NCBI RefSeq assembly: GCF_040807025.1
Contig: NC_090947.1
Span: 10,354,001-10,418,000 of the forward strand
Direction: 5' to 3'
Length of the DNA stretch: 64,000 nt
DNA from: Struthio camelus
Lineage: Eukaryota; Chordata; Aves; Struthioniformes; Struthionidae
Part shown: positions 3,094-36,700 of the stretch, one piece after another
Position numbering within the stretch: position 1 is the first letter of the stretch
Layout of the letters: every line of letters begins with the position of its first letter
Translations under genes and position numbers: made by a program
The notes under the pieces: model-generated
What the model saw: the letters and a program-made list of their open reading frames with translations, nothing else
Told to the model about the DNA's origin: nothing
The model's database searches: none

Positions 3094-3244
3094 CTAATTT
3101 TCAGTTGACTGGGACTGTGGAATTTGGAAGATCAACTGCTTCCTTAGGGTTGATGATATCTTTGGCATCTGCTTCCATCCATTTAGTACTGCTCTTCCCA
3201 CTTCCTTGTTCACTTCTGTCAGGATGGTTACCAGGTCCTTGCGC
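3094..3244 (-). CDS. CASP18: Caspase-8-like gene, last coding exon: p10 end
   Basis: Acceptor TTTGTTCAAG. It encodes RKDLVTILTEVNKEVG, KQMPKISSTLRKQLIF and a short tail, ending in TAG at 3096-3094. The LTEVN and TLRK motifs are typical of initiator caspase C-termini. Confidence 0.93.
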
Positions 3245-6200
3245 CTTGAACAAACATGAAGAAAAGGTACATTGAAATACATGGTACTTTCAACTAGGCC
3301 AAGAAGTTGACCTATGTTTACTCCAATAACATGAGATCTTGGGGAATGTTGGTATCTTCCCGTCATCCTGTCTGTCACTGAAATTGCGCGCTCTGTTGTG
3401 TAATCACAGCATTCAGTATGTACTGGGGAATAAAGTAACCTCTGTGTAGAATCACTTTACAAACAAACACACTCCTTTACCTTGGTTATGGTCAAAAGAC
3501 AGCACTAAGATGACACAGAAGCAAATTTATGCATTTTCCAAGCCGTCCGCTGGACTTCACGAGAAAGCGGTGCCTGGAGAGAAATGTTATTTTCTAAATC
3601 AAGTTTAGGGTTGGGAGGTGGACATGGGCGAGGAAACAGGGAAAAGTACGAATAAAGGGTACTAATTTTTTGCCTGTGTACTCAAGCAACAAATTTGCCT
3701 GTCATCAGGTGTCACTGGAAGAAAGATCCCTTGTCATTTTAAAGATACATTAAAACAACATGTTCACACTTGTTTTTATGTATTAAACACTTGTTTACAC
3801 ACTTGTTTTACATGCTTTTTATGTTTTACACACTTGATGATGTGTGTTCAAATATATAAACACAAACTTGCTTATATGTAATGTTCCAACATTACAATTC
3901 TGGTTCCGTAACAGACAAACTAGGTAAGTCACTTGAACTTTGCTTCATCTGTAGAAGAAAAATAACAGTGCCCACTTCCGGAATAATTACTAAGCAGACA
4001 CTGCTCTGCAGGTGAAAAGCATTATATAGAGCAAATGCAAAACAGCCATGTTTCAGCACAGCATGCTTAAGTATGTATTTCAACAATACCCCAGTTGTAC
4101 CTGGGTTAAAAACAGTACTTACAGTGGGCAAAGCAACTCCATTTTGTCACAGAGGCACTGAATGTAAATACTGCCTGTCTTTGCGTGGCGGTAGCACTCA
4201 AAGTCTTCCACAGTAGCCATGCCAACCAGAATATCAGCCTGGTCGGGAATGGAAACCAGAGGAACAGCGTCTGTCTCAAGATGGTCAGAAAAGTCTTCTT
4301 TTAATGTGACAGCTGGATGACCTACAGACCCTTGGCAAGCCTGGATGAAAAACAGCTTGGGTTTTCCAGCAAGAGAAGGACAGTTAGATCCACTAAAGCA
4401 AGAGAGCAAATCTTTAATATTTACAAACTCCCCATCAACGCCTTTTATTTTGTCTTTTTCACCATGTGAAAGGACGAAGCAAACAAAACAGTCCATTTTG
4501 CTATGATCTTTCTTGCTGTATTCTTTAACTTTTGCATACATTTGGTTTGCTTCTAGATCCATGTACTCAACTGTCTCAAATTGAAGCCACTTAAAGACTC
4601 TCTTCAGCGCCTCTGTAAAAAGAAAGTTGGAAGGCACTTGTTAAACATGAACAGTGATAAGGAAGATGAGGAAACTGAAGGCTCTGTGTGGTAGGATAGA
4701 TACTGGCAGAAGCATTCAGATCCCACCAATAAACTCACCTGACTGACACTCAGCCTGCCAAGTTTTAAGAAAAATCAGGGATGCCTAATTTTTTTTTTTT
4801 TTTTTAAACACAACAGAGGTGAACATCACACTGTCTAAAACAAAAGTGGATTTCAGATTATCTGATTAATCAGTACAATTTAGTGAAGCTTAGTGTGTTA
4901 TGCAATGTGTTTAACCGTACGCTGCATAGCAATCTCAGATGCTTAAGAACAGCCCTTAGTTAGATAAAGAAGAAGTATTTCTTTAGCATGATAAATTCTG
5001 CCACTCTTAAATGATGTAGGTTCCTTATTATGTGAGAATGATCAGTGCAGAGAAAAGGAAAGGCCACTAACAAAGACAAGGTACCATGCAGACTTCTCAG
5101 CAACCGCTGACTTGGTGTTGTGTTGGCAGAGAGAAAACAGCTGGGAAACAAGAAGGCTGCAGACAGGTTAAGGTTAAAATGTTAGTGATGTATGCTTTTA
5201 TAAGACAGATTTTAGTTTATCCAGATAAACAAATGACTCTCGCAGGAAGAAAGACTTAAGGAAAATGATAAAGCAATAGAATTGCATTTATTTGAGCACT
5301 GCTGCAAATAAATGCAATGCTGACTAGATCAGAATGCTTTCTCAGCTGATAGCATGGCAAAGCTACACCTTTCACTCAGTAAATTAAGCAAAGAAATCAT
5401 TAAAGAGAATTTAAGGACTTAAAAAGTGTTACTTTATGATAGTTAAGAAGTAAAAAAAAAAAAAAAATCAAAACCTGAGAAGACGGAATAGTAATCCCTC
5501 CTTCACTATTTGATATATACACAAACAATTAAGATGATACTCTTTTTTTTCAACCTTCCTTGAGCCATCACCAAAATTGTTGGAAGTGGCATATTTCCAA
5601 TTTTTGCAGTGACTGTCACTCTAGTTACTTATTCTGGAAGCAAAGGAGCTTAGTCAAAGTGGCCGTTCTTCACAGGAAAGATTAGGCAATTCTTTCGGAG
5701 GGTAACACAAAAAACCAAACCAATAGTTGGATTTTAAAAAGTACTTACCTCCATCTTTCACTGTTCCTTTCCTCATGCCTTCAGGATTTTTAAAAATGTA
5801 GTTGTTAAGAATCACACAGTAACCATGGGGGTTATTTTCCATCCTATATGATTCCACAAGCTGTAGAAACACAGAAAGTAGGTAAGAAAGCAGTGCCAAA
5901 CATCCAAGGGATGTATGCTCTGCAGAGATCTTTGCTCTTCCGTGCCCAAACACGAAAAAATCATGAGGGCCAAGATACAAAAAAGGAAAAGCCCAGACAT
6001 ACGAACCAGCCCTGGGTACAGGGGAAAAAATGCTGCTTCCTTTTCCTGAAATCCCTTCTCTCAATCTGTGGCTGCAATTTGATTTTGGAATGGAAAGTGG
6101 ATATCCTGAAACATGTGCAGAGGAAAGGTTCCTGCACCATACCATTTCCTCTCAGAATCTTGCTGAGTTTCTCGTTAGGCAACTGATGCTGCGGGTCCCT

Positions 6201-9200
6201 TCCCATCTGTTCAGCTTGAGCTGGAAGAGGATGGGATACTCTTACTTTTGCCCATCCCAGTCTCTGTCATCTTTAAGATTGTTTTTCTTCCTATGACAGC
6301 TACTCTTTCATTTCTTGTCTACAAGGTTGCAGGCAGCCAGGTCCTCACCAAGGGACAAGGCCTGGTCTTCTTTTGAAAATGAAAATCCTTCCAAAGCCTA
6401 TATATGAAGCCAAGTCCTCTCCCTTTTACCCCTTCTCCCTTCAGTTTTAGGGATCTGTGCTCCCACGAGCTGGATGAACACTTCAAAGGCACTCTTGAGG
6501 CATTTCTCACCAGGCGTGCTTGTGTTCCCTCCTCTGCTCCTTGTCCTGCCGGATTCACAGACATGCATGTTGGATAGCAGAGCTTTTCCTCAGAAACATT
6601 CCCTAAGAGGAGGATAAACAGGACACCTTAGGAATAAAAGAATAAGTCTTCCACTTAGCATATTTCAACACCAAAAGAACAATGCAAGGAGTGAGGCAAG
6701 GGGTGGTTTTCACACCATTATTTTGCAGAGATTGTGTCAAGGAAGGTTCCATTTTTGCAAACTGCTGGAGAGTGAAACTGCGCAGAGCGTTCCTTGGAAC
6801 AAAACATACATTTGTGTTAGACTGCTACATCCCATTGCAAATACTGCCAAAATTACAGCCATTAGGTAAAAATGAACTTCCAGCCCCCAGGCACAGCCAG
6901 ATGCTTGAGACTGGAAGACAGTGTGCGCTGCATTCCCACAATAATCGTATCGCATTCCAGTCCTTCCCTGCCCTTCGGCTGGCAGCAAGATCCAGGAAAT
7001 CTAAGTCGGGATACGAGCACTCACCCCAGGCAGGCCATTCACTGGCATCCGCACTACAGGATACAGAAGTGAAAAAGACGACCTATTTTTGTACAGTGAT
7101 ACAGCTCAGTGATACACTCAGCTCATTCACTTCTGAGGCCGTCACCTCGTCTCCAATGCATTTTAATTGCTTGGGTGGACAAACCAATGAGGCAGAACAT
7201 CAACATAATGGAAGACTTCCTCAAAACAACAAAATGCTGCCTTGAATACAACTGCCTGAAACAAGTGAATAAACTCTCACACCCAAGACTACACTCAAGG
7301 AGATAAATCACAATACCCCTTTTACAAGTCAGTTATATAGATGAGTTTAAATGAAATTTGGTTGTAAAGGCCGTAAGTGCTCTTTTCGTACTTATCAAGG
7401 GGGACAAAATAGTAACAATACTACTAAAAAAATACTCTCCTGGCAGAGGGGTTGCCTAGACCCCTCTAAACATCCTTAGTAATTCTTTGGCTCTTGCGGA
7501 GAGACAAGCACACCTCAGCAGCACAAGGACATGCCCTGGAGCGACTAGTCCATATCTCCACAGGTTAACTGCCCAGCTGTACAGGTATGTCTAAGGAAAC
7601 ACACCATACTGAGTCAACTGAAAGGAGGCTCCGGGGAAAAAATTAACAGGTCTCAGTTGTTTGTGGTTGACGCTCCCTGTTTCCCAAAGTCTAAGCCCAT
7701 CTGTGGCGTCAAAAGTCACCACCTCAGCTGCAGATAAACCAAAGTTCTTGAAATTTCACATTCGGTACAGAAAGCGAATGGTTAAATTTTAGCCAAGTAC
7801 CTGGTCTCCACTAACTTTTCTGTCTGCTAAGAGCAAGCAGCCTGGCTAACAGAAAGCAATGCTGACAACCTCCCAACACAAGGCTGGTTCCCCAAAGGCA
7901 ATTGCCTGTCACCTCTGTTCTCTTTTAGTGACTGAAAAGCTAGACTGGTCCAAAAACAGCACTATGCTGTTTCTTGAGGAGGAAGACTGCATTTAAGGCA
8001 AAGAGGAGGGAGATCCAGATCATTTACAAGGCACAGAATATATTTCAGGGAGAGGTTCAAGAAGATATAACGGGATAGCGAAGTATCAGACAATTTAGGA
8101 AATCACAGCTACCAAGAGCCGCTATGCCTGTCCTAGGATACTGTAAAGTCTCTCTCTTAACTCTGGACTCCTCAGCTCCCAAGGACTGAGCCCAGAAATG
8201 ACAAAACCCAGCTCTATGCTAAATCAGCAGATTATATAATTTACCTTTTGTTTCTTCTTCATAGGTATCGATTTTTTTCTTTAGGTCAGCTCTAAATCCC
8301 TTTAATATATCCTTCAGCGTCGTCACATCATCTTCTTTAATTACTCCATTTCTTTCCATTTCCAGTAAGACCGTCAACATTGGCTGGTAAAACAAAAACA
8401 TACAACCCAAACACACACATGACCTTCAACGACTGCATCAAGTAACACTCCAAATATCTGGCACTTCTGGACAGCGCAGAAGACAACATCCTCGTTTCCA
8501 GAGACTGGTCATCTAAAAATCAGTTTCTTTTTCCTCCAAACTTCATTGGGACTGAAGAAAGAAATCAGTTAGTTAAGACAGGATCTTTAGAAATTGCCTA
8601 TACTTGGCTTATCCTGCTTGGTTTCAACAATGTAAACCAGTGATGTGGATAATAATGTGGCAATCCTGTTAAGTGCCACTGCATTCAGATAAACTATTAT
8701 AAACCATTTAGCTGAAGTGTTATACATATTCTAATACAGAAGAGGCCTTCAGGAATAATATTCATTTTTAAAGCTGATTAGTCCACTAAATTGGAAGTAA
8801 ATCTGCCATTTTTCCTATAGGTACCGCAACACAAATAGGACTTCTTAACAAATAGGAAGCTTCTTAACAGTATCAAGCATTTCTGTAACACTGATCATTA
8901 TTGTCAAGGCAGGCATTCAACTAGCTTACCAAACCTCTTAGTACTTTTGAGGGGAAGTTAACAAAAGCGCAGCTATCCCAAATTTCCCAAATAAAGAAAG
9001 AAACGTACCCACGGACATAGAAAAATCTGTTGTGGAACTCAGGTTAGAACTCTGTTTCCTGGCTCCTAAACATCCTGTTTTTTCCTCCAGCACCCACCAT
9101 TCCTCCCGGATACAGCATATGCACAAATGTTTTTAAAAATGCCAAGCAAAGACGAAAGGAAGAGCATGATGGGTTTTCCAAGAAGAAAAGACGGGGAGAA

Positions 9201-10467
9201 AGGTGGTGCAGAGAAAATAAGAACAGGAGAGCAAAAAAAGACAGACAGAAGACAAGACAGAGAGAAAAGGGTCCGTTCTGTCACAAGAGTAGTTGTCAGC
9301 TAACATCCTACTTCTCTGAGCAACAGAATTTTAGCAAGAGCAGATGCCTCCCTCCTTACAAGAGGCAGACTCTGAACTAGCCTTGCACGAAACTTATCAA
9401 GATTACTGTGCCTACAGCATTATCCTGGAGCTTGCTCTTTGGTATTTGTTTTTGCAGCAGGAATTTCACGCTGTCGACATCTTCTGGAGTTAAGTCTTCC
9501 GCAATTCCATATAGCAGTTGCCTGGCAAAAAAGGATAGCGAAAGACTGGTTAAGAAAGTTATGACGATTAAATAAAGGGTATGGGACAAACCCTTCTCAT
9601 CTTCCTCTCCCAAATACCCACAAGCACCTGAAATATACCTGATAACAGCTCCAATCATTTCTAGGTAGAATACCCATCAATGCATTAAGGTCATCTAAGA
9701 AGAGCGTCATACAGTAAACACAGTTAGTAGCAACAAGGGAGACACTATGTTTAGGAGCACTCTTCTCAAAACATGATATAGTCTGGCTCACAATCATCAC
9801 ACAGTTAATTTAAGGAAAGACTGGATTCTCTCTGTGGTTCCAGTTGTGATGTAGGTCAAACACAGTCAACCCTTCTAATACTAAATAACTCTGGGGGAAA
9901 AAAAGCTTGCTCAGAAAAATTAGGAAAACAGAGCAGCTCTGTCTGTCTCAGAACCACCACAGGCATACACTTGAACTGAAAAATATGAAACATGGTCTCA
10001 AAACTCAGAAGGGCTGACAGTCATGCTGTAATAAATACAGTTACACTGAGATATGCATAAGATGACAGCGGAGACAGAAAGCAAGAAAGATGGCACACAA
10101 CAGAACCATTCTGCGCGAACCTTCTCCTTGCAAAGGTTTACTACTGCTGTGCTTACCTGTAGGCTGACACCTTTGCCTTGCCTGGGATCTGAAGCTCCCT
10201 CTCCATCTCCTCTCGGCTGGAGAGCAGGAGTTTACCCAGGATGTCCATGCGATTGATCCGGTAGATCAGCTCCTTCAGGAAGGCCAGATTCCCCACCTCG
10301 ATCAGGCCTTTCTCCTGCAGCGCTTGGAAGAAGGCCTTGGGCTCCTGAATGGCTTCCTGCTTCCTCAAGGGGATGTGCTCCAGGCTGAGGAACTTGAGAG
10401 CTGCCAGGTCATCCTCGACCAGTGCCTCAGAAACGCGAAAAAGGAGTTTGTGGATATTTGTGCTCAT
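3094..10467 (-). CDS. CASP18: Caspase-8-like initiator caspase with two DEDs (probable caspase-18)
   Basis: Cysteine protease of the extrinsic apoptosis pathway, predicted to bind FADD through its DEDs. Coding exons by eye: 10467-10157, 9521-9416, 8383-8245, 7826-7801 (tentative), 5860-5749, 4612-4123, 3244-3094, giving 444 aa with every phase closing. DED1 is about residues 3-80 and DED2 about 104-180, both close to caspase-8 (start MSTNIHKLLF; EEMERELQIPGK). The protease domain has Arg224 (RKGT), His281 (LSHG), Cys324 (QACQG) and Arg373, so it looks active. LETD at 343-346 is a likely p20/p10 processing site. The p10 half is unusually divergent: CYRHAKTGSIYIQ where caspase-8 and -10 have GTWYIQ, and KQMPKISS instead of KQMPQPTF. 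That divergence, plus the position beside CASP10, argues for CASP18 rather than CASP8. The alternative is a fast-evolving CASP8; a tree would settle it. No CpG island lies upstream. Confidence 0.68.
4123..4612 (-). CDS. CASP18: Caspase-8-like gene, p20 exon with His and Cys
   Basis: Acceptor CTTTTTACAG and donor CACT|GTAAGT, 490 nt, phase 1 to 2. It holds [25 protein letters not shown], the LETD linker motif and the start of p10 (ADILVGMATVEDFECYRH). Confidence 0.93.
5749..5860 (-). CDS. CASP18: Caspase-8-like gene, exon starting the caspase fold
   Basis: Acceptor TGTTTCTACAG and donor GGAG|GTAAGT, 112 nt, phase 0 to 1. It encodes the first strand (SYRMENNPHGYCVILNN) and the RKGT motif whose Arg224 should bind the P1 aspartate. 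The CASP10 counterpart is also 112 nt. Confidence 0.9.
7801..7826 (-). CDS. CASP18: Caspase-8-like gene, tentative linker micro-exon
   Basis: A 26-nt stretch with acceptor TTGCTCTTAG and donor CAG|GTACTT. It reads on in frame from exon 3 (phase 1) and joins the next exon in phase 0, giving ADRKVSGDQ. Some exon of length 2 modulo 3 is required here, and this is the best candidate seen. A second acceptor AG follows 3 nt inside (TAGCAG). Other linker exons of length divisible by 3 could have been missed. Confidence 0.45.
8245..8383 (-). CDS. CASP18: Caspase-8-like gene, coding exon 3: DED2, second half
   Basis: Acceptor TTTTACCAG and donor AAAAG|GTAAAT, 139 nt, phase 0 to 1. It encodes LLEMERNGVIKEDD and FRADLKKKIDTYEEE. 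The RADL stretch matches the RxDL motif used in DED contacts. Confidence 0.85.
9416..9521 (-). CDS. CASP18: Caspase-8-like gene, coding exon 2: DED2, first half
   Basis: Acceptor TTTTGCCAG, then QLLYGIAEDLTPEDV and KFLLQKQIPKSKLQD, the first helices of DED2. The exon is 106 nt, phase 2 to 0, the same length and phase as the CFLAR equivalent. Confidence 0.85.
10157..10467 (-). CDS. CASP18: Caspase-8-like gene, coding exon 1: DED1
   Basis: Carries the ATG (A at -3) and all of DED1, including the RxD-type motif RINRMDI. The acceptor TTTAG lies at 10488-10487, so about 19 nt of 5'UTR is on this exon. The donor CAG|GTAAGC leaves phase 2. At least one upstream noncoding exon is implied and was not located. 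Confidence 0.85.
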
Positions 10468-16335: not shown

Positions 16336-16498
16336 TCAGTGTTGCTGTGAGGGAGGAGGGTCTCTAGGCACCGGGAATATAAATTTTCTTCTTAAGGTAT
16401 AAGCTGGCTGGGGCATCTGCTTCTTTGTTCCCAAGCTGTCAGCACGCCTGCTCACATCGTCATTAACTTCTGTAAGAATGGACAAAATATCTTCACCC
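16336..16498 (-). CDS. CASP10: CASP10 coding exon 10: p10 end
   Basis: Acceptor TGTCTGCAG, phase 2. It encodes [32 protein letters not shown] and a Pro-rich tail, ending in TGA at 16338-16336. [10 protein letters not shown] is the clearest caspase-10 signature in the window. Confidence 0.94.
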
Positions 16499-19400
16499 CT
16501 GCAGACAGAAAGCAAGCAAACAGAAAAACTGATTTATTAATGAGCAGGTGGCACTTGCTTCTCTATCTAACACCTCCTAGAGCACCTAGGAGATACAGTC
16601 TAAACATTTGAAAGACAGACGGAAGAAAACAGGCCCTTTTCTCCAAAATTCTCTTCTTGTGTTCTCATTTAGGTCATATTAAAAACAAGAGACCTTTTCT
16701 TACCTTAAATTGCTTGATTCAATCAGCAGGGAAAACAAAAGAAAGAAAGAATTTTTTTTTACCTAAACCCACTCAAGAAAGAGATGGTTGTGTCTAACAG
16801 GCAGAGCGGAGGTTTAGAGATTTTGAGTTTTTAAATTAAACTTCACATTCTCTAGACTGTCTCTACAGTACTAGCAGCGTTAACATAAATTTACCAGAAC
16901 CAGGCAAACAAATCATCAGCTTAACTAAGTTTGTCCAACTCAGAGCGTGGCTTAGCTTTCCTATTTGAATTTGCCTTTGAAGAGTTAAAAAAAAAAAAAA
17001 GGGAGGGGAGGTGGGGGTTCTTCCTATTTCTTCAATGAAGAGCTAAGTAGAGTAGTCAAATATTTACCTGGGTACTAACAGCTGTAGCTTACTGCACAGG
17101 GCCTGAATATACCAAGTCCCCTGTTGAACATGCCGGAAAGAGGCGTAGCCGTCGGTTGTGGCCATGCCTAGGAGGAAATCAGCTTCTTCAGGAATACTTT
17201 CAGAAGGAGAAATTCTCTGTTGCATAGAAGACAAGTCAGGAATTTGTGCATCAGGTTCAACACAGACAGCACGCTGTATCTCTTTACCTTGACATGCCTG
17301 AATAAAAAAGAGTTTGGGCTTTTCAGCAAGCGCTGGACATTGTTGGGCAGTGAAGTAGGACATGATCGTGCGGATTGATACACGCTCCCCATCTGTCCCA
17401 TAGATTGCTCCTGACTCTCCATGAGATAGAATACAGCAAATAAAACAGTCCCTGTCTTTGTGATCTTCCAAATTCTGCCAAGCCTGCATGAGATCTTTAA
17501 TTTGCTCAGATGTTAGATCTCTGTGAATCGTCACGTCAAGACCAAGCCACGTGAATACTTGATTCAGTTCCTCTGTAATTAAAAGAAAGATAAAAATATA
17601 AAACTGGGGCAGCAGAAAAACATTTTATGAAGTTACCATGCAAGCAAATCTAAACTGCAGAAGAACCTCCCACTTCATGCTTCTGCAGATTCATCCTTGT
17701 CCTAGTATCAACTAAAGGTTAGCGGGAATAAAGATGGAATCAGCTTAAACACAAGAGTCCTTGAATTTTTCTCAACAAGTTTCAGAAAATAAGACCTAAG
17801 GCACTTTCTTAACTCTGTGACAGGTGCAATGCGTACAATGTCACGCTAAGTGAGCTCATGAATGACACCTGGAAATACGAGGAGTCTCACCAGAGTTCCA
17901 GATTAGATTTCTTTCAGAATCTTCCTCAAGTCATTATTTTCCAATTGCAGTTACGACTGCTGCAGAGTTTCATTAGCAAGACAGATAGAACAAAACCAAT
18001 CAATGAAAACCTATACACAGAAGTGCTGGTATAAGCAATTTTGGATTATATTATGTAGAATGGTGGCTTAGTTTTCGTTCTTTATTACAGCTATAGATCC
18101 AGACTGAATGAGAAAAAGGGATTCTTAACATGATTCAAGAATGATCCAACTGCACGGCAAGTTCGGTGTTTACTCATCTTTTAGTCCTTCCCCCTCTAGG
18201 ATACACAAGCGACACTCATCAGAAACCTTTACCATTTAAGAATATTAACTAAAATATGGACAATAAGACACAGAGCAAAGAGAGAATCAACTCATGAAGG
18301 GGAAACAGAGAGGCTAACATACCAAAAAAAAAAAAAACAAAAAACCCTCACTTCAGTAACTTACCAGCATCTTTGCAAGAACCCTTTCTCTCCTGAAGAT
18401 CCCCATCAAATTTAACATTATTAATAACAAGACAAAATCCTCTCTGTGGTCCATCCATTTTGTAGCTTGTCAAATTCTGTAGAAAGGAAAGAGGAAAAAA
18501 AGCTTATAGCTTCAATGAATATATTCAGCACTGAAGAAGTGATGAATGTCTGATCTCCAGCAATCCTATTTCCTTCACATGTCTCGAAATGGGCATCCAA
18601 AATTAGAGGCACCTTAAATTGAGGTTACTTTTGAAAAGTTGGAACTCAGTGGCGTCTCCTTGTGTGAAAAGACACAGGTGAAGCCCCAAGCAAGCACACT
18701 ATGTCACCATATTCTCAAACTGCAGAGCAAAGGTTTAGCAACTGCAAAAATACCATTTAATTCATCAATTAAACTCTGCAATCTGAACAGGCATTGGGAA
18801 TAACAGTGTCCAGCTGCTTCTGAGGCCAGGAACGGCTTTTGACTCCAGGCAGTAGAGGGGTCACACTGACACTACGGCATGTTAGACATCTCAGTTTATT
18901 TGTCAGAGTACAGTAGTGAGGAGTACCTGGAGTGGGTGGTTCATACCGATCCACTGAAAAGGGATGCGAACAGAACAGAGATCTCAGAAGTGCTGAATCC
19001 TGTGACAGTACCAGGTTTGCCAAGGTGTAAAGTTACCTCCCACTCTTCAGTAAGAATGTTTTAAAAACTGAGAAGTCACCAAAACGTCAAGTACCATCCT
19101 TTCAAATCCAACCTCAGGTTAACAGCAGCAAGTCCATTCTAATAACAGACACTCCAGCTCCTCTCCTCTCACTAGAGAGAGCAACAAAAAAACACCTAAT
19201 TTTGTGCATTTTAGTGGAACCAAATGAAGGGCAGCTTTCCAAGCTCCTTCAACAGCAGCAAACAGTACTTTTGCTACAGCAGTCTGGACATCAGTAAAAA
19301 AAAGGACAAACAAGGCTTCTAAGAAGGGATCACACAAAAGGGAGCTTCATCTGAACCAAGACCTCCGGATTGTTATGACAGTCATATGCCTGCAGAACAC

Positions 19401-22400
19401 ACTTGCCTTCTTTCATCTTCCTTACAAGGTCTTTGCATGCTATCCCTTATCCTTTTTTAATTTTAGGATACCCTGAAGCTTTTCCTAAGTCAGATATAGA
19501 GAGGGAGAGAACTGCTAAGCTACATTCATCCATGCCCACCTGCATATTCTGCTGCCATGTCCAAAACATGCAACTTAAGATAATGCCAAATGATTTGCCT
19601 GCATCAGGAGGATTAGCAGATGCACTGATGTGTGGATAGCATTAGAGACATTATGCCTGTTTCCCCTCCACCACACCTTTCAATATTGGTAAGCTTCTGG
19701 CCTCCAAAATTAAAATACGCTCTGAAATATTCCAATTGATCAGACTGCTTAAAAGGCTCACTGAGACCCACAAACATCTCACAAGTCCTTGCATGATAAA
19801 CGTCATTACAGGCACGAAGACTTCACACCTTCAGCTATTCGAAAAGAAGGATGAGATTGTCGCAAACCTTGGATTCATTCTCTGCATTGATGAACTTTGC
19901 ACGCAGCTCCAAGTTCATTTCAGAGACGCCTTGTATAACATTAGCTGCTTTGTCACCTAGGAAAAAAAAAACAGAACAGGTATTTATTTATAAGGAGAAA
20001 ACTAACACCGGTGGATGCAGCAAAGAGTTCAGCCACAGTGCAGCACTTCTTGTATTTTAAATGCTATTACACGAAAGGAATGATTCCTCTGTATGAGACA
20101 GCACTATCCTGTTCAAAGGATCTACTCGGGCCATGTCTCCAGTAATTTTTGGTATATTCTTTCGTGACAGAAGTAAGGTTTCTGTTTATACTGGTTCTGT
20201 GGAACAGAGATATCTATAGTACAAGGACACTCTACCTGAGACATTCAAATGAATTTTTCAATTGGAAATCAGCACAGAAATCAACTGCACTGTAAGAACA
20301 ATCTAAGACGTTACTACTGAAATTCCCATTACAGAATCCTCTTTTGTTCCTGAATCGTTTACAATAGCTCTCAGACAAACTTTCAGAAGAAGTTTGCACT
20401 GATGGAGCTAGAAAGCAAAAAAGAGCTGATGTTCTGTTGCTGCACTTTGCAGCTGTCCAATCTGATGTGGAGTCACAAAGATGGACGCAAAACATCTGCT
20501 GCCATTTTAAGGAATCCTTCTAGAGATACGATCCAAAATACAATTTTATTTATTGGTGAAGGAAATATTTTTCCCTCTGACTGGCCTAAAACTCTTGCTT
20601 CCTCCTGTACAAAAGCATTCACTATTTAATGCATTCAAAACACCCGTATCTACTACCCAGCACCTGAAAACTCTTAGCTGGTAATCTCAGTAACTTCACT
20701 TACTCCAGTAAGCTACTGGAAGATGTGCAAACATTAACCTTAATATATTTATGTTCTCTATAGTGGGTAAAGGTGCCAGGAACAGAAGCAATTTTTGTTT
20801 TGTTTGCCTCTTTATGTCCTCAGAGCTATTTTCTGCTTATTTAAACAGTCATTCTGGCAACGCCTGGGAAGAGCAGGCATAGGTCTTCCTGATGTCTACC
20901 GTGGTGAGAGAACTGGAATAAAAAGACAAGAAGCCATCCTGCTTCCAGGGCATTTTCTCATTTCCTCTGTAACAGTCCCTTGCAAAAAGGGCCACAAGAA
21001 CCGACTTGGCCCCTTTAAATAACATACTACATTTCAGGCAGCCCAAAATAAAAATAGCTTAATATGAAAGCCCTAAGAGAAGACAAACCTGGTCTGATAG
21101 GTATGGGGCGCACATTCCCAACATGCTCCCATAGGCTCCCAGGCTCTCCACCATAATGATCTACATAGCAAAAGAAGCCAGAGGTAAAATGCTTTCCTGC
21201 ACACAAAGAATTAACATTTGAGGTTTATAAACAGTCACAGCGTCCCCATTCTCTTACCCTTCCAGGGATGTTCAAACAGAAAACTTATTTTCAATCCTCA
21301 GGAAAGAAAGCAGCTTTTTACTTCTGATCAGACCAGCCCTTATTTCAGTTCCCAAAAAGCACATTAGTTAGTTTCTAGTTAATGACTGACAAAGTACACG
21401 GGATTTGCCAACTGTCTCTTTTATATAAGAATAGGTGTCTTTCAAATCAGTTTGTGCAGGAAGCAAGAGACCCTTCCAATAAGACTGCAAGGTAACTGTA
21501 CTACATTAAATAAAATGTTAGAAATTTCCCAGAGTAAGTCAAGACAGTTAGCACTATGTAACATTAAATATAATGATATTAAAAAAACAAAACAGAACAA
21601 ATAAAACTTTCCAGAAAGCCTTACCATTAATATTAGAACTGACAGCTTTGACAGAGGTCTCCTATTTTTCGGGTGGAGGAAAAAAATCTAGGTTAAAAAT
21701 CACTGTATATATAATAATTTTTTCACAACGATAGGCAAAACAAACTCAATAAACACCAAAGCTGCTTGAGTAGCGGGAGGAAAAATACTGAATTCCTAAG
21801 AGTAGCAAAGCATTTAACAATGAACTACAAATGACTTCCCCATTTAAAGTAAATCTCATGGAGCTGGAAACAACTGTATTTTCTCTTAAGGAGAAAGGGA
21901 AATCACAAAGAACTTTCTTTCACTTCCAAATGGTCTTCTCACTACAAGGGGTGGGGAGTCACTATAAACAAAATAAAGGTCTAATATAGTCCAATATCAA
22001 TTCTCTTGGATGGTCAATTATTTGATTCTAACTCATTGTACCTAATGATTCTAGTCCTGCCTAAGTGACCTCTTCCGGCAGTAAGTGTCAATGGTTTATT
22101 ATCCAGCACGGAAAAACTGTATAATATTTCATCATTTTTGTTAGGTGAGCCTGTCAGGAAAATCAAACAGGATCACAGAAATAGGTGTGGGTGTTTTTTG
22201 TTTGTTTTTTGTTTGTTTTTTGTTTTTTAAAAAAACGTACATTTTCTTAATACAACTGCATTCATTTTCTGGCCATGCCAAGTGCCATGTGTGAAAGCTT
22301 CCCCAAATCCTCTATACACGTAGAGCTAGTATACCTCAAGCAGCAGTAATACAAGCCCTTCTGACACTAAATAGCCCATTTTCCTTAGCTCTTGTCTACT

Positions 22401-25062
22401 GAGACTGTACTTCTTAGAAGTATCTTCAGGAAGATCACTGGCTTTACTCATTTAGAACTGATATGGGTATAACTTCCTCCCTTCCTCTCCTTTTCCCAAA
22501 AAAGAGATTAGTTATAGCCCAAGTAAGTTCCCCAATCTGATTCATCACGCAGCTGAAGGAAGACCCATGATCAAGGGCTGGGTACAGTTAAGACCACTTC
22601 CTTTAGCAGCAGCAGCTCGAACTGACCTTCAGACTATGGTAGGTAGCCTTTGGTGGCAGTTCAGTGACAATTGTCTGAAACTTTAAAAATCAGCAGCAGC
22701 TGACTGACCTATTCTCTAGAATGCACCTTTCTAACCTTCTCTCTCACTTCTCTTCCTAACATCGTTTTTTTTCCCCAGTTGCACACGACCAGCAGTAGTA
22801 TTTTTGACTTCTATTATTTGACGCTATCTACTGTTATCTCTTACAAGCTGAAGGAATATGTTTGCTCCCTTCCTAAATCAAGTAAGATTTAGCAAAAGAT
22901 CTCACAGACAGTTTGGTTTCAAAATAAAGGCAAGAAAAAAAAACAATCCCCCAAATCAGTAAAACCCAAGTAGGCAGCATGCACTCCAGTGTACCTGTGG
23001 GGAAGTGAACAGTCTGGTATCTCCAGTGTGAGGCAGCACAGATTCCTTGACTGGCAGAGTGTTCTCTTGCTGCGGTAGAGACACTAAAAGCAGACAATAA
23101 ATGAGAGAAGTCAAGTGCCTTTCAGTTAAACCAGTATGAATTTGCACATGAAGGCAAACGTGGATCTACACTTAGAGAGAGATGCATTAAAAAAGAAAGC
23201 CACTTTGAAACATGCTCAGGAAGTGTGGGGAACTGAACTCATAAAGCACTGAGTGACCTTGCACCCACTGGAGAGAAGTAGCTTTGCACTTCCCTGAATT
23301 TATTTCCCAGTGATTAAATAAATGAAACTAGAACCTTTTCCCAGTATGTTTATAATTACTCTACAGGACTTTACATGGAATAAGTTCACAAACTACAGGC
23401 TAACCCCCTACAACCTGAACCACTTAATTAATAAAAACTTATCCATGTATCAGATACACATGCACACATACCTTGCCTTACCAACTCATTAGCAAACACA
23501 ACTCCCTTGAGCAACTTAAAATACAGTAGTGTACCTCTGTAAATTAGAAAGTACCTTTTGCAGTATAGTAGCACGTCCTTACTGGAACTCAGCTAGGAGG
23601 CAATGCAAGCTAAAGACAGCTATGCTAAACCTGTGTGTGAAGGTGCTGAGTGATCCCACTCTAGTTTCTGCTGCAGCAGTGCACACATAGGATGTCCAGG
23701 TGCCAGCTTCAGTTGCCCAGACCCTTCCAGAGCTTCCTGCCTCTTAGCAAACCTGTGCTCTGACTCTGAATTTCTCACCTTTTTCCCTTTTATAGCTGCT
23801 TATTGCTTCCAAGAGATCAGGTGAAACACTCATACAGAGTTCCTCCAGCACTTGTACATTATTTTCAGTTAAAAGACCCTGTTTTTCCAATAAAATCAGC
23901 AACTCCAGAGCAGACTGACAGAAAAAAGAGAGAGTAAAATGCACTTATTGTTTCTTAGAACTTAAAACCACGGGTCTCGACCCTCTCTGCCTCATATAAT
24001 TACATTATCATCTGCTTTGCTTCTTGCCAACAAGTTCCGAACAGTCAATTTTACATAGCCAGGTGACAGGGGAAATGTTGCACCATGGAAAGCTACTGAC
24101 TGAATTACAACTTGGTATGTTCTTGCTTCAACAGATTTACCCAAACTACATTAATGAATTCTGGCCCTGAGAAGGCTTTATCGCTGTGAAACAGTACCAA
24201 CGACATATGGGCATAAATGTCCTCTGTTCATGGCTCAAGCAGGAAAAAAAAAAAAAAAAGATTGATATGTCACCTTGTTGTGGTCTAATGCAAGAGAGTA
24301 GACCATCCACGACTGTCCTTGGCACAAAGCTGAACCAAGTTCCACTCTAATCCTGCCATCAGCTTCCTCCTTGCTAACTCTATAAAACATCCATCAGCCT
24401 AGTTGCAATTACGCCTTATTCTGGCAAAGATTCTCTTCTCCGTGCTCTTCCGTGCCCCCATCTTCCCTCCATACTATATATACGTTTGTCTCTCTCCCTA
24501 CATACAATAGTTGTCTGTCGCTTTGGTAGCTGGTTCCTCAGGAGGAATATGATTTCCTTTAACATCTCGCTGGTAACGTTCTCTGCCAATTCATACAGCA
24601 TCTGCCTGTAACAGAGACCCAGTGAGATCAAAGTAGAACAGAAGAGGGTGTAGAAACACAACGCAATCTGAGAATTTAAAAACTGAAAGGGAAATAGCAG
24701 GCAACAGATGGCAGCAATGCAGCTAACAGAATCCCATTGGAAGCTCACCTGTATGAAGACACTCTTCCCTTCTCAGGCAGATATTCTTGCACTCTCTCCT
24801 TGGTATAGCCAAGTTTTTTGAGCAAGAAGTGACATTTAATTCTGTATAAGAGCTCAGCTAGTAGGAAAGTATCCTCCTCACTCAGATACTCTTCAGCCAT
24901 AAGAAACTGAAAGATGTCCAGTGCTGACTGCACACTTTCCAATTTTTTGAAGGGGATCAGGTCAATGCAGAGAAATTTTAAAGCTGCTACATCTTCGGTA
25001 CCCAGGTTTTCTTCAATGAGTAGAAGCTGCTGACGGAATTTCAAGCTGATATCATCCCCCAT
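16336..25062 (-). CDS. CASP10: Caspase-10
   Basis: Initiator cysteine protease of death-receptor signalling. Ten coding exons by eye: 25062-24749, 24605-24506, 23914-23779, 23083-22995, 21661-21625, 21160-21089, 19956-19868, 18476-18365, 17572-17068, 16498-16336. They join without a frame break into 538 aa (human about 521). DED1 is about residues 8-90 ([24 protein letters not shown]) and DED2 about 105-180 ([21 protein letters not shown]). A long linker (about 184-279) uses four exons. The caspase domain has Arg309 (ERKGS), His367 (LSHG), Cys410 (QACQG) and Arg463 with GTWYIQ. PEPD-like Asp sites VEPD (421-424) and QIPD (426-429) lie in the p20/p10 linker. The tail [17 protein letters not shown] and [14 protein letters not shown] matches caspase-10 specifically. 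The ATG context (A at -3, G at +4) is strong. Confidence 0.95.
17068..17572 (-). CDS. CASP10: CASP10 coding exon 9: p20 exon with His and Cys
   Basis: Acceptor TTAATTACAG and donor CCCAG|GTAAAT, 505 nt, phase 1 to 2. It contains [45 protein letters not shown] and GTWYIQALC. Confidence 0.95.
18365..18476 (-). CDS. CASP10: CASP10 coding exon 8: start of the caspase fold
   Basis: Acceptor CTTTCTACAG and donor GCTG|GTAAGT, 112 nt, phase 0 to 1. It encodes [16 protein letters not shown] and ERKGSCKDA. The paralogue to the left has an exon of the same size and phase. Confidence 0.92.
19868..19956 (-). CDS. CASP10: CASP10 coding exon 7: linker
   Basis: A T-rich tract with acceptor CCTAG and donor CCAAG|GTTTGC, 89 nt, phase 1 to 0. 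It encodes [16 protein letters not shown] then [10 protein letters not shown]. Only this phase is open, which supports the exon chain. Confidence 0.65.
21089..21160 (-). CDS. CASP10: CASP10 coding exon 6: linker
   Basis: Acceptor TTTTGCTATGTAG and donor CCAG|GTTTGT, 72 nt, phase 1 to 1. It encodes [18 protein letters not shown], which loosely resembles the human linker (LPQESWQNKHAGSNGN). Being 72 nt, it could be skipped without a frameshift. Confidence 0.6.
21625..21661 (-). CDS. CASP10: CASP10 coding exon 5: 37-nt linker exon
   Basis: A pyrimidine tract (TTTTTTCCTCCACCC) ends a little before acceptor AATAG; donor AATG|GTAAGG. It encodes [12 protein letters not shown], phase 0 to 1, which is exactly what the flanking exons need. 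Confidence 0.55.
22192..22228. repeat. T-rich (GTTTTTT/GTTT) simple repeat
   Basis: Runs of T6 and T3 separated by single G, followed at once by A7. It lies in the CASP10 intron between exons 4 and 5. It could be a decayed retroposon tail on the plus strand, but no body is recognisable. Confidence 0.5.
22995..23083 (-). CDS. CASP10: CASP10 coding exon 4: linker
   Basis: Acceptor TCTGCTTTTAG and donor CACAG|GTACAC, 89 nt, phase 1 to 0. It gives a Gln/Pro/Thr-rich linker segment ([14 protein letters not shown]...) with no domain. Support is splice sites and an open, phase-compatible frame only. Confidence 0.65.
23779..23914 (-). CDS. CASP10: CASP10 coding exon 3: DED2, second half
   Basis: Acceptor TTTTCTGTCAG and donor AAAAG|GTGAGA, 136 nt, phase 0 to 1. 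It encodes [28 protein letters not shown] and SSYKREK, close to human caspase-10 (FLEKQGKIDEDN, EKYKREK). Confidence 0.9.
24506..24605 (-). CDS. CASP10: CASP10 coding exon 2: DED2, first half
   Basis: Acceptor TCTGTTACAG and donor TATT|GTATGT, 100 nt, phase 2 to 0. It encodes [14 protein letters not shown] and [14 protein letters not shown]. Confidence 0.88.
24749..25062 (-). CDS. CASP10: CASP10 coding exon 1: DED1
   Basis: The exon begins at 25083 (acceptor TGCTTTCAG) with 21 nt of 5'UTR before the ATG. The donor CAG|GTGAGC leaves phase 2. The RxDL motif of DED1 is missing (RIKCHFLL), as I recall for human caspase-10. Confidence 0.93.
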
Positions 25063-33767: not shown

Positions 33768-36700
33768 CTGCAGCAAGAGAAATACAAACTTTTCTTTAAA
33801 GAACGAAGCAGAACACATTTAAGAACCCAAAGGATGAAAGACAACTTCAAACTCAGCAAGAAGAAAGTTTCAAGTTTCAGTCTTTAGTAGAGGTTGCCAT
33901 CTTTAAAACCCAAGGCTGAAAATGCATTTTGGAGAGTATATGTTATATCCCAAATCACTATCATGCTATTTGTTATGCTCTCTTTTCCTGGTGACCTGTG
34001 ATTTGGTCATGAGGTTTTAGGATTTGTGCTAACTGCTGACCTACAGTTACCTTGGAAAACAGCTGCCAGCTGCCTGGTAGACCAAGCGTACAATGAAAAG
34101 CTTTGCCATTAAAGTTATATATGCAAGTACATCTGATTTTTACTCAAATCTCTTTTGATAATATCTTTAGACAGACTAGTCTCTTTTGATAGTTTCAACT
34201 CAAGATTATAAATTGACAATCTCGTGGATCCTGAAGGGAGGGTGAATTAGATCGCAAGAAAATAAAAAATTCCTCCCTCTCAACTGTCTTTTTCGCCCAG
34301 TTCAGGCCCTGGCTTTTTGTATTTGCAAGCAGAGCCCTTCTTAATGGCTTAAGAGGCAATCCTCAATTTGACAACTGCCTCGTGTACACCTTGCATTTTG
34401 GAGAAGAAAGACTTCAATGCTTGCCTAAAGCACTGAATTCTAGAGCACTGACAAACCTCACCCAGGTCAAGGCCTTCTCCTCATACTCTGCAAGCCCCAG
34501 TCCCATAACGCACTTTCATTTTACCATCCAGAATGAGAAGCTTCACTCCTACTCTAGGGTACCTTCCTCTGCCATCGTTCCAGAATGAGGTACATTTGTC
34601 TTTAATCCTATGACACAGCGTGAAGACACTTCTCAGGACCAGAAGGGATGAATCTTAACACAGCTCTCTCTCCAGGACAGTAGGCTGTCTTAGAAAAAGG
34701 GTTCTTTTTCCTCTTTTATTTACCTTTTATGGGGATCGCGGAGTAGCTCAGCCAGACAACGTAGATAATACGAGGATGGATTTGGAGAGCTTTCTAGTAT
34801 AGACACATCCACCTTGCACTGACTCCAAAAGATGTCTGCTACTTGGGGGATAGTGACTTTCCATGGGATTTTTGCATTAGCAATGATCTTCTCATCATTC
34901 CCATCTACTTCCAACAGACTAGTACATTCTTGCTCACTTTCTGGCACAATGTAGCTCTGAATGAAGAAGAGCTTTGGTTTTCCTAGGAGTTCAGGACATG
35001 AGTCTGCAGTAAAGTATTTCTTTATTTGCTCCAAAGGGAATCCAGAAAAGGTCTGGTCTGTACAGAATATGCTCTGAGGGCTTCCCCGGCTGACCAACAC
35101 ACAGATGAAACTGTCGCAATTTCTGTGCTTCTGTAACCTTGCAATTTCATGCAAGGTTTGATTCATGGTATCCATATTTAAATACCTGTAACAATGAACA
35201 TCATAGCCTAAGTCTCCGAAGGTCTCTTCCAACATATCTGGAAAAAAGCAAGACAATTAAATCAAGGCACAGCAACGCTCAGTCTCAGCTATCCTAAAGG
35301 ATTACAATATTTACAGTAGTTCACTATTGGAAATAAGATGTTCATTTCATCACAATAATTGAAAAATCAGGAGTCTTGATGTTAATCACATAGTACATTA
35401 TATATTTACGTGCTATATGCATGTTCTCTTTAATAGGAGTTACGTACTTCATGACAACTTCATGACACTAACATGTGGCACATAATCTGTTTCTAATTCC
35501 ACCAATTTTTGCACACTTTGGTTTAGAGCCAGCATCCTAAAGAACTGTTCTTAAGACTTAAAATATCAGGCAAGAAAAGACGATAAAAAAGGCTTCACAG
35601 GGAACAGGCTTGTAATGGCAAAGAGTGACCTGGGTAGTATGGGAAGTCTGTTTCACCTTTAACTTGTCTAAATTACTCTGAATGCTTATTATTGCAGATA
35701 TACAGACATGGATAGGAAAAGCAGATGCTGCCTTTCATCAGTCAAAAAGGAATCTGCAGCAGTCATTCACACTTGCTATCGTATAAAATGGACTTTAAGT
35801 GAATGAAGAGTTCTAGATGGAGAAGGGACACTGGAGTTTGGGCTGTGACAAGCCTGGTGACAGAATGAAATTTTTAGCCATGAAAAGCTAAATGCTGTTG
35901 ATGAGCCATTTCAAATGCATTAGAAATTAAAATTGTAGATAGCTAAAATCAAAATTTAACACAGTTGTATTTGTGTTAACCTGTATTGCAGGAAAGCGTG
36001 TTATGCTCTGAGTAACTACTTTGAATGTTTATTAATATGGGAGTGAAACCAAATTCATGGTGGTTAAAACCACAGGTATTGTTTAAGTGTTCTGTGAACC
36101 ACAGGCTACCACTATGACTTATAGCAGCTGCATCATATCTTTATTATAAAACACATATATACACGCACACATATATACACGCACACATATATACACGCAC
36201 ACATATATACATACATAGAGGGAGAGGGAGAGGGAGAGGGAGAGGGAGAGGGAGAGGGAGAGGGAGAGGGAGAGGGAGAGGGAGAGGGAGAGGGAGAGGG
36301 AGAGGGAGAGGGAGAGGGAGAGGGAGAGGGAGAGGGAGAGGGAGAGGGAGAGGGAGAGGGAGAGGGAGAGGGAGAGGGAGAGGGAGAGGGAGAGGGAGAG
36401 GGAGAGGGAGAGGGAGAGGGAGAGGGAGAGGGAGAGGGAGAGGGAGAGGGAGAGGGAGAGGGAGAGGGAGAGGGAGAGGGGGCACGCACCCATACACAGT
36501 TTCTAATATAATGACAGGAGAAAATGAGTGCCATATAGACACAGGAAGCAAGACTGCTCCTCGACTCCAGAAGTTTAGCAATTCCTAATTAGCAGAGGCA
36601 AAGGGCTGAGCTACTTCAGAGGTAACTGGCAGCAAAACAAGAGCTCTACTACTACGGTGTTCTCCTCAAGAAACACAAACAGTGAAAACGGAGAACAGAA

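Follow-up and report, generated by a model that had tools for sequence, protein, structure and literature searches.

A probable caspase-18 gene of the ostrich carries a first DED exon recently converted with CASP8

Introduction

Caspase-18 is described in chicken (NP_001038154; PMC2779465, PMC5965869), opossum, frog and coelacanth as a protein with two DEDs and a caspase domain, encoded between CASP8 and CASP10 by a gene whose genomic structure is like that of CASP8, CASP10 and CFLAR. In the accessible parts of this literature, CASP18 of chicken, frog and opossum is placed between CASP8 and CASP10 (PMC2779465), the cluster is described in chicken, coelacanth and gar (PMC5965869), and the gene is reported as present in chicken and zebra finch and absent from placental mammals (PMC2865498). 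Here we analysed a gene of the same kind in a 64,000-nucleotide stretch of the Struthio camelus genome (contig NC_090947.1, positions 10,354,001 to 10,418,000; hereafter the window). A first-pass annotation had named it probably CASP18, noting a position near CASP8/CASP10 and an absence from placental mammals; both statements agree with the available portions of PMC2779465 and PMC2865498.

The window gene is very probably bird caspase-18. It shares with the published protein the two DEDs, the caspase domain and the place in the cluster. Compared with the caspase-8 of the same genome, it is nearly identical in DED1 and possesses the same catalytic residues, but it is unlike it in DED2 and in both protease subunits. 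Most of its first exon results from recent gene conversion with CASP8. With good confidence, we read the locus as an intact CASP18 with a recently converted DED1, CASP8 as the donor, and a predicted role as a FADD/caspase-8 partner with an altered protease.

Results

The gene begins with an ATG at 10467 on the minus strand and ends with a TAG at 3096-3094, exactly the span first annotated, and its open frame encodes 466 amino acids. All six introns of the seven-exon coding region are of the GT-AG type and there is no internal stop. Two DEDs and one caspase domain were recognized by Pfam. The assembly-gap check revealed no ambiguous base (N) in the window or in regions L009 and L010. The gene is an intact DED initiator-type caspase, referred to below as CASP18.

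In the 20 kb to the left of the window, a further caspase-8 gene was sought. This region contains an intact CASP8 of seven coding exons and 462 amino acids (L010 6938-1690, corresponding to C6:10350938-10345690 on the contig of the window, C6), with its ATG about 3.1 kb beyond the left window edge, where the first-pass annotation had expected it. CASP8 and CASP18 are direct tandem paralogues, 13.5 kb apart and in the same orientation.

Comparison of these 20 kb with the window by blastn gave five matches. The strongest was between the DED1 exons of CASP8 and CASP18, and the next two linked the CASP8 p20 exon to the p20 exons of CASP10 and CASP18, both at about 69% identity. At the protein level, CASP8 and CASP18 agree at 83/89 positions in the DED1 tract (93%), as against 30/77 in DED2 (39%), 69/149 in p20 (46%) and 45/86 in p10 (52%). 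Thus, the initial description of the DEDs as caspase-8-like is right for DED1 and fails for DED2. The DED1 of CASP10 matches that of CASP18 at only 32/86 positions (37%).

Synonymous sites displayed the same pattern. Between codons 23 and 100, CASP8 and CASP18 differ at codons 79, 80 and 82 only; all three differences change the amino acid, and none of the 53 synonymous sites differs. Over codons 14-103, the synonymous distance (dS) between the two genes is 0.085 (5 differences at 62.3 sites), compared with 2.4 between CASP8 and CASP10 over the tract. Outside the tract, the CASP8-CASP18 distance reaches 1.35 in DED2 and is beyond correction in p20 and p10. Fourfold-degenerate codons encoding the same residue are identical in 30/30 cases for codons 23-100 and in 32/36 for codons 14-103, versus 4/11 in DED2, 12/30 in p20 and 9/19 in p10; the corresponding count for CASP8 and CASP10 in the DED1 exon is 6/13. 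When the columns of the 1344 aligned sites were shuffled, none of 10,000 shuffles produced a run as long as the 168-base core, the longest being 32. Beyond the tract, the 5' side, roughly the first twelve codons and intron 1 are unrelated between the two genes, except that a handful of bases match at the splice site. A genome-wide search, which scores the best candidates only, found two copies of the DED1 exon and no third. These results show that most of CASP18 exon 1 derives from recent interparalogue gene conversion with CASP8. The DED2, the linker and the protease of CASP18 are old and divergent.

The absence of differences at 53 synonymous sites sets an upper dS of about 0.057. Avian substitution rates are near 1-2e-9 per site per year, which would date the conversion to under roughly 15-30 million years. 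The identical core is followed by a short island at codons 79-82. Because the proportion of differing positions there (4/11) is about the level of unconverted sequence, this island is probably an unconverted patch between two tracts; alternatively, it might result from adaptive change after the conversion.

Trees were built under LG+G4 with ultrafast bootstrap from 5-7 sequences, those of CFLAR and of two genes that we take to be CASP3 and CASP6 being partial. CASP8 and CASP18 were united in the DED1 tree (support 99), and CASP18 stood apart from both CASP8 sequences in the DED2 tree (support 78-79). This conflict between domains supports conversion.

The base composition and the resemblance to human caspase-8 were then compared for the direction of the conversion. 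The tract in CASP18 has a GC content of 0.575, and its 500-bp flanks have 0.42 and 0.41; for the CASP8 DED1 exon, the values are 0.64 upstream and 0.47 downstream, and promoter-proximal GC could explain part of the high upstream value. The human reference was caspase-8 chain 8ybx_A, whose engineered DED2 and p20 changes slightly lower the human figures of every gene. CASP18 is 58% identical to it in the DED1 tract and 32-50% in the other three domains, whereas the 56% of CASP8 in the tract falls within its own range elsewhere (44-74%). CASP8 is thus probably the donor and CASP18 the recipient. The front of CASP18 would be caspase-8-like while its enzyme half is not because most of exon 1 was recently recopied from CASP8.

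The GC content at third codon positions (GC3) is 0.77 and 0.81 in the DED1 exons of CASP18 and CASP8 (window 10157-10467 and L010 6634-6938, respectively). The remaining exons of CASP8, CASP18 and CASP10 have values of 0.27-0.61, with 0.47 in the DED1 of CASP10. The high values are possibly the trace of repeated GC-biased conversion, and they are what a transfer from CASP18 to CASP8, or repeated transfers both ways, would have in its favor. We consider such a history rather unlikely, since the flanks are GC-poor on both sides for the CASP18 copy only and the tract is CASP8-like when measured against human caspase-8.

The identity of the gene was assessed from its neighbors and from its distance to human caspase-8. 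A caspase-domain search of the whole genome returned 28 matches, 24 of them on contigs other than C6. The remaining four are tandem p20 exons on the minus strand of C6, at 10346117 (left of the window), 10358137 (CASP18), 10371082 and 10388726, and the order of the cluster on this one strand is CASP8, CASP18, CASP10, CFLAR. No further DED caspase was found elsewhere: the four DED matches outside C6 (one on C5, two on C30, one on C39) share no contig with the 24 caspase-domain matches outside C6. The naming as CASP18 is therefore supported by the position in the cluster, the one published for this gene, together with the exclusion of CASP8. That the gene might instead have arisen from CASP8 by a younger tandem duplication specific to this lineage would agree with the DED1 common to both genes. 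This is very unlikely, as synonymous sites outside DED1 are at saturation or close to it and the protein identity there, 39-52%, is of the same order as that between CASP8 and CASP10; the gene also occupies the published position of CASP18.

The first-pass annotation had also considered that the gene could be the only CASP8-like gene of a lineage with a fast-evolving CASP8, CASP18 being nonexistent. The caspase-8-like DED1 would suit this idea, as would the PDB matches, the best 60 of 237 being chains of caspase-8, -7 and -3 together with an ancestral effector caspase and a caspase-8 chimera, with caspase-8 chains foremost. However, CASP18 is distinct from the separate, intact CASP8 of the same genome, and it is the left-hand gene that is closest to human caspase-8, with 34/77 positions in DED2 (44%) versus 25/77 for CASP18 (32%), 93/161 in p20 (58%) versus 67/153 for CASP10 (44%) and 63/149 for CASP18 (42%), and 64/86 in p10 (74%) versus 50/86 (58%) and 42/84 (50%), respectively. 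A fast-evolving CASP8 is thus scarcely credible and was rejected. The same figures qualify the statement that the p10 of this gene is far more diverged than that of CASP10: p10 is indeed lower (50% versus 58%), but the contrast was overstated, p20 being about equal in the two genes. Finally, strong constraint on the proteins of an old gene pair, to which the binding of FADD and partner DEDs by DED1 would lend itself (PMC7864959, available in part, and established knowledge), has a negligible chance of explaining the DED1 identity and was rejected, because the synonymous saturation that it implies is not seen within the tract, either in fourfold codons (30/30 versus 6/13 for CASP8-CASP10) or in dS (0.085 versus 2.4).

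Table 1. Positions in the window of the CASP18 gene, its conversion tract and the neighboring genes.
Feature	Position	Strand	Description	Basis
CASP18 coding region	3094..10467	-	7 coding exons, 466 amino acids	splice sites, open frame, Pfam domains
CASP18 exon 1	10157..10467	-	N-terminal tip and DED1	gene model
Conversion tract	10149..10428	-	280 bp, ungapped, 15 mismatches, 94.6% identity to CASP8 exon 1 (L010 6626-6905)	blastn
Tract core	10234..10401	-	168 consecutive identical bases, codons 23-78	codon alignment
Island	10223..10233	-	codons 79-82; differences at 4/11 bases, changing 3 amino acids, none synonymous	codon alignment
Second identical run	10166..10222	-	57 bases, ends within codon 101	codon alignment
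CASP18 exon 2	9416..9521	-	first part of DED2, FL motif F124/L125	gene model
CASP18 exon 3	8245..8383	-	second part of DED2	gene model
CASP18 exon 4	6511..6602	-	prodomain-protease linker, residues 180-219 without Asp	gene model
CASP18 exon 5	5749..5860	-	start of p20, R246 aligned to human R260	gene model, alignment
CASP18 exon 6	4123..4612	-	p20 with His303 and QACQG Cys346; linker LETD368; start of p10 with R395 and I402	gene model, alignment
CASP18 exon 7	3094..3244	-	remainder of p10	gene model
CASP10	16336..25062	-	9 coding exons, 514 amino acids, DED1 exon unconverted	gene model, identity, synonymous sites
CFLAR caspase-like exon	34726..35235	-	catalytic Cys and His replaced	caspase-domain search, sequence reading

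In the alignment, CASP18 retains the catalytic H303 and C346 and the S1 pocket residues R246, Q344 and R395, the His/Cys pair and the Arg and Gln residues having these roles in caspases generally. The residues expected of an active caspase (peptidase C14) are present, and the protein is predicted to be active. Its p20-p10 linker contains the motif LETD, ending at D368 near human site 384, and D360 is aligned to human position 374; the neighboring CASP8 has a similar Asp-ending motif, VETD. In the p10 substrate loop, human W420 is replaced by Ile402 and human S411 by Cys393. The Trp at human position 420 forms part of the pocket lining on the S4 side. The prodomain linker also differs between the genes: it contains no Asp in CASP18 and a single one in the neighboring CASP8, and human caspase-8 has D210, D216 and D223.

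CASP10 is a tandem paralogue with the same domain order as CASP18. It differs by its unconverted DED1, by the conserved Trp and by its prodomain-protease linker, which is encoded by three exons (window 19868-23083) instead of the single one found in CASP8 and CASP18. At the position of the catalytic Cys, the caspase-like exon of CFLAR has FIQSY (Tyr), and at that of the His it has SRG (Arg), as expected of c-FLIP.

The caspase-domain search also revealed a gene present on both C40 (70 Mb; C40:69919000-69924000) and C41 (90 Mb; C41:89380664-89385664), near the contig ends, with 99.83% identity over 4.2 kb. We take this gene to be probably MALT1, presumably Z-linked in birds. Such near-identity would be expected of a region shared by Z and W in a ratite-like bird, whose sex chromosomes would be little differentiated.

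Discussion

The homogenization of DED1 alone with CASP8 was absent from the first-pass annotation. Literature searches, judged by titles and the beginnings of abstracts, retrieved no report of CASP8-CASP18 DED1 conversion, and on the same basis nothing on this pair in the literature on gene conversion in reptiles and birds. PMC2779465 was the only paper retrieved that mentions both CASP18 and gene conversion, the passage in the part available being on fish card-casp8. The gene itself was already known and had been named correctly; newly noticed is the well-supported recent conversion of the exon for its first recruitment domain.

Human caspase-8 filaments involve the DED2 F122/L123 motif and contacts in the DED1 Y8 pocket, according to the accessible part of PMC7864959. 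CASP18 retains the FL motif of DED2 and has a Phe (F10) at the Y8 position. With this motif and a near-identical DED1, CASP18 might enter FADD/caspase-8 filaments, where proximity would activate it, with cleavage at LETD368 separating p20 from p10. Because its prodomain linker is devoid of Asp, the protease would stay attached and thus tethered to the filament, to which it could add an activity shaped by its altered substrate loop (in human numbering, W420 to I and S411 to C). As far as can be predicted from sequence, CASP18 may therefore be a filament partner of caspase-8 with a differently tuned protease. In virus-infected chicken kidney, casp18 expression is increased (PMC3870970, seen in part); this would fit an immune or death role and proves nothing for the ostrich gene. 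More tentatively still, repeated conversion could hold the two DED1s alike for the same FADD/DED filament, CASP18 being a built-in caspase-8 partner with a protease of diverged specificity, and codons 79-82 setting the position in the filament; we regard this as doubtful.

Several points weigh against our overall reading of the locus. CASP18 and CASP8 differ at the N-terminal tip, at codons 79, 80, 82, 102 and 103 and in the Y8 pocket (F10), so the binding of the CASP18 DED1 may differ from that of CASP8. D15 and R52 of the human caspase-8 DED1 were studied as mutants (PMC7864959, in the portion available); V and G occupy the corresponding positions in CASP8 and in CASP18 of the bird, and the human filament model may therefore not transfer exactly. 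Orthology with CASP18 is supported by position and by the gene not being CASP8, and the direction from CASP8 to CASP18 is one that we infer. In the catalytic-domain tree, CASP18 has a longer branch than CASP10 (0.85 versus 0.59) and is loosely placed, with supports of 43-58 at the surrounding nodes and 97 at the CASP3/CASP6 node; this tree, being weak around CASP18, was left out as proof.

CASP18 was lost in placental mammals (PMC2865498, PMC2779465, both available in part) and is seldom discussed. Trees of DED caspases built from whole proteins or from DEDs can misplace it. The recopying of DED1 alone, beside a divergent protease, suggests for this gene a role in co-assembly with caspase-8 that can be put to the test.

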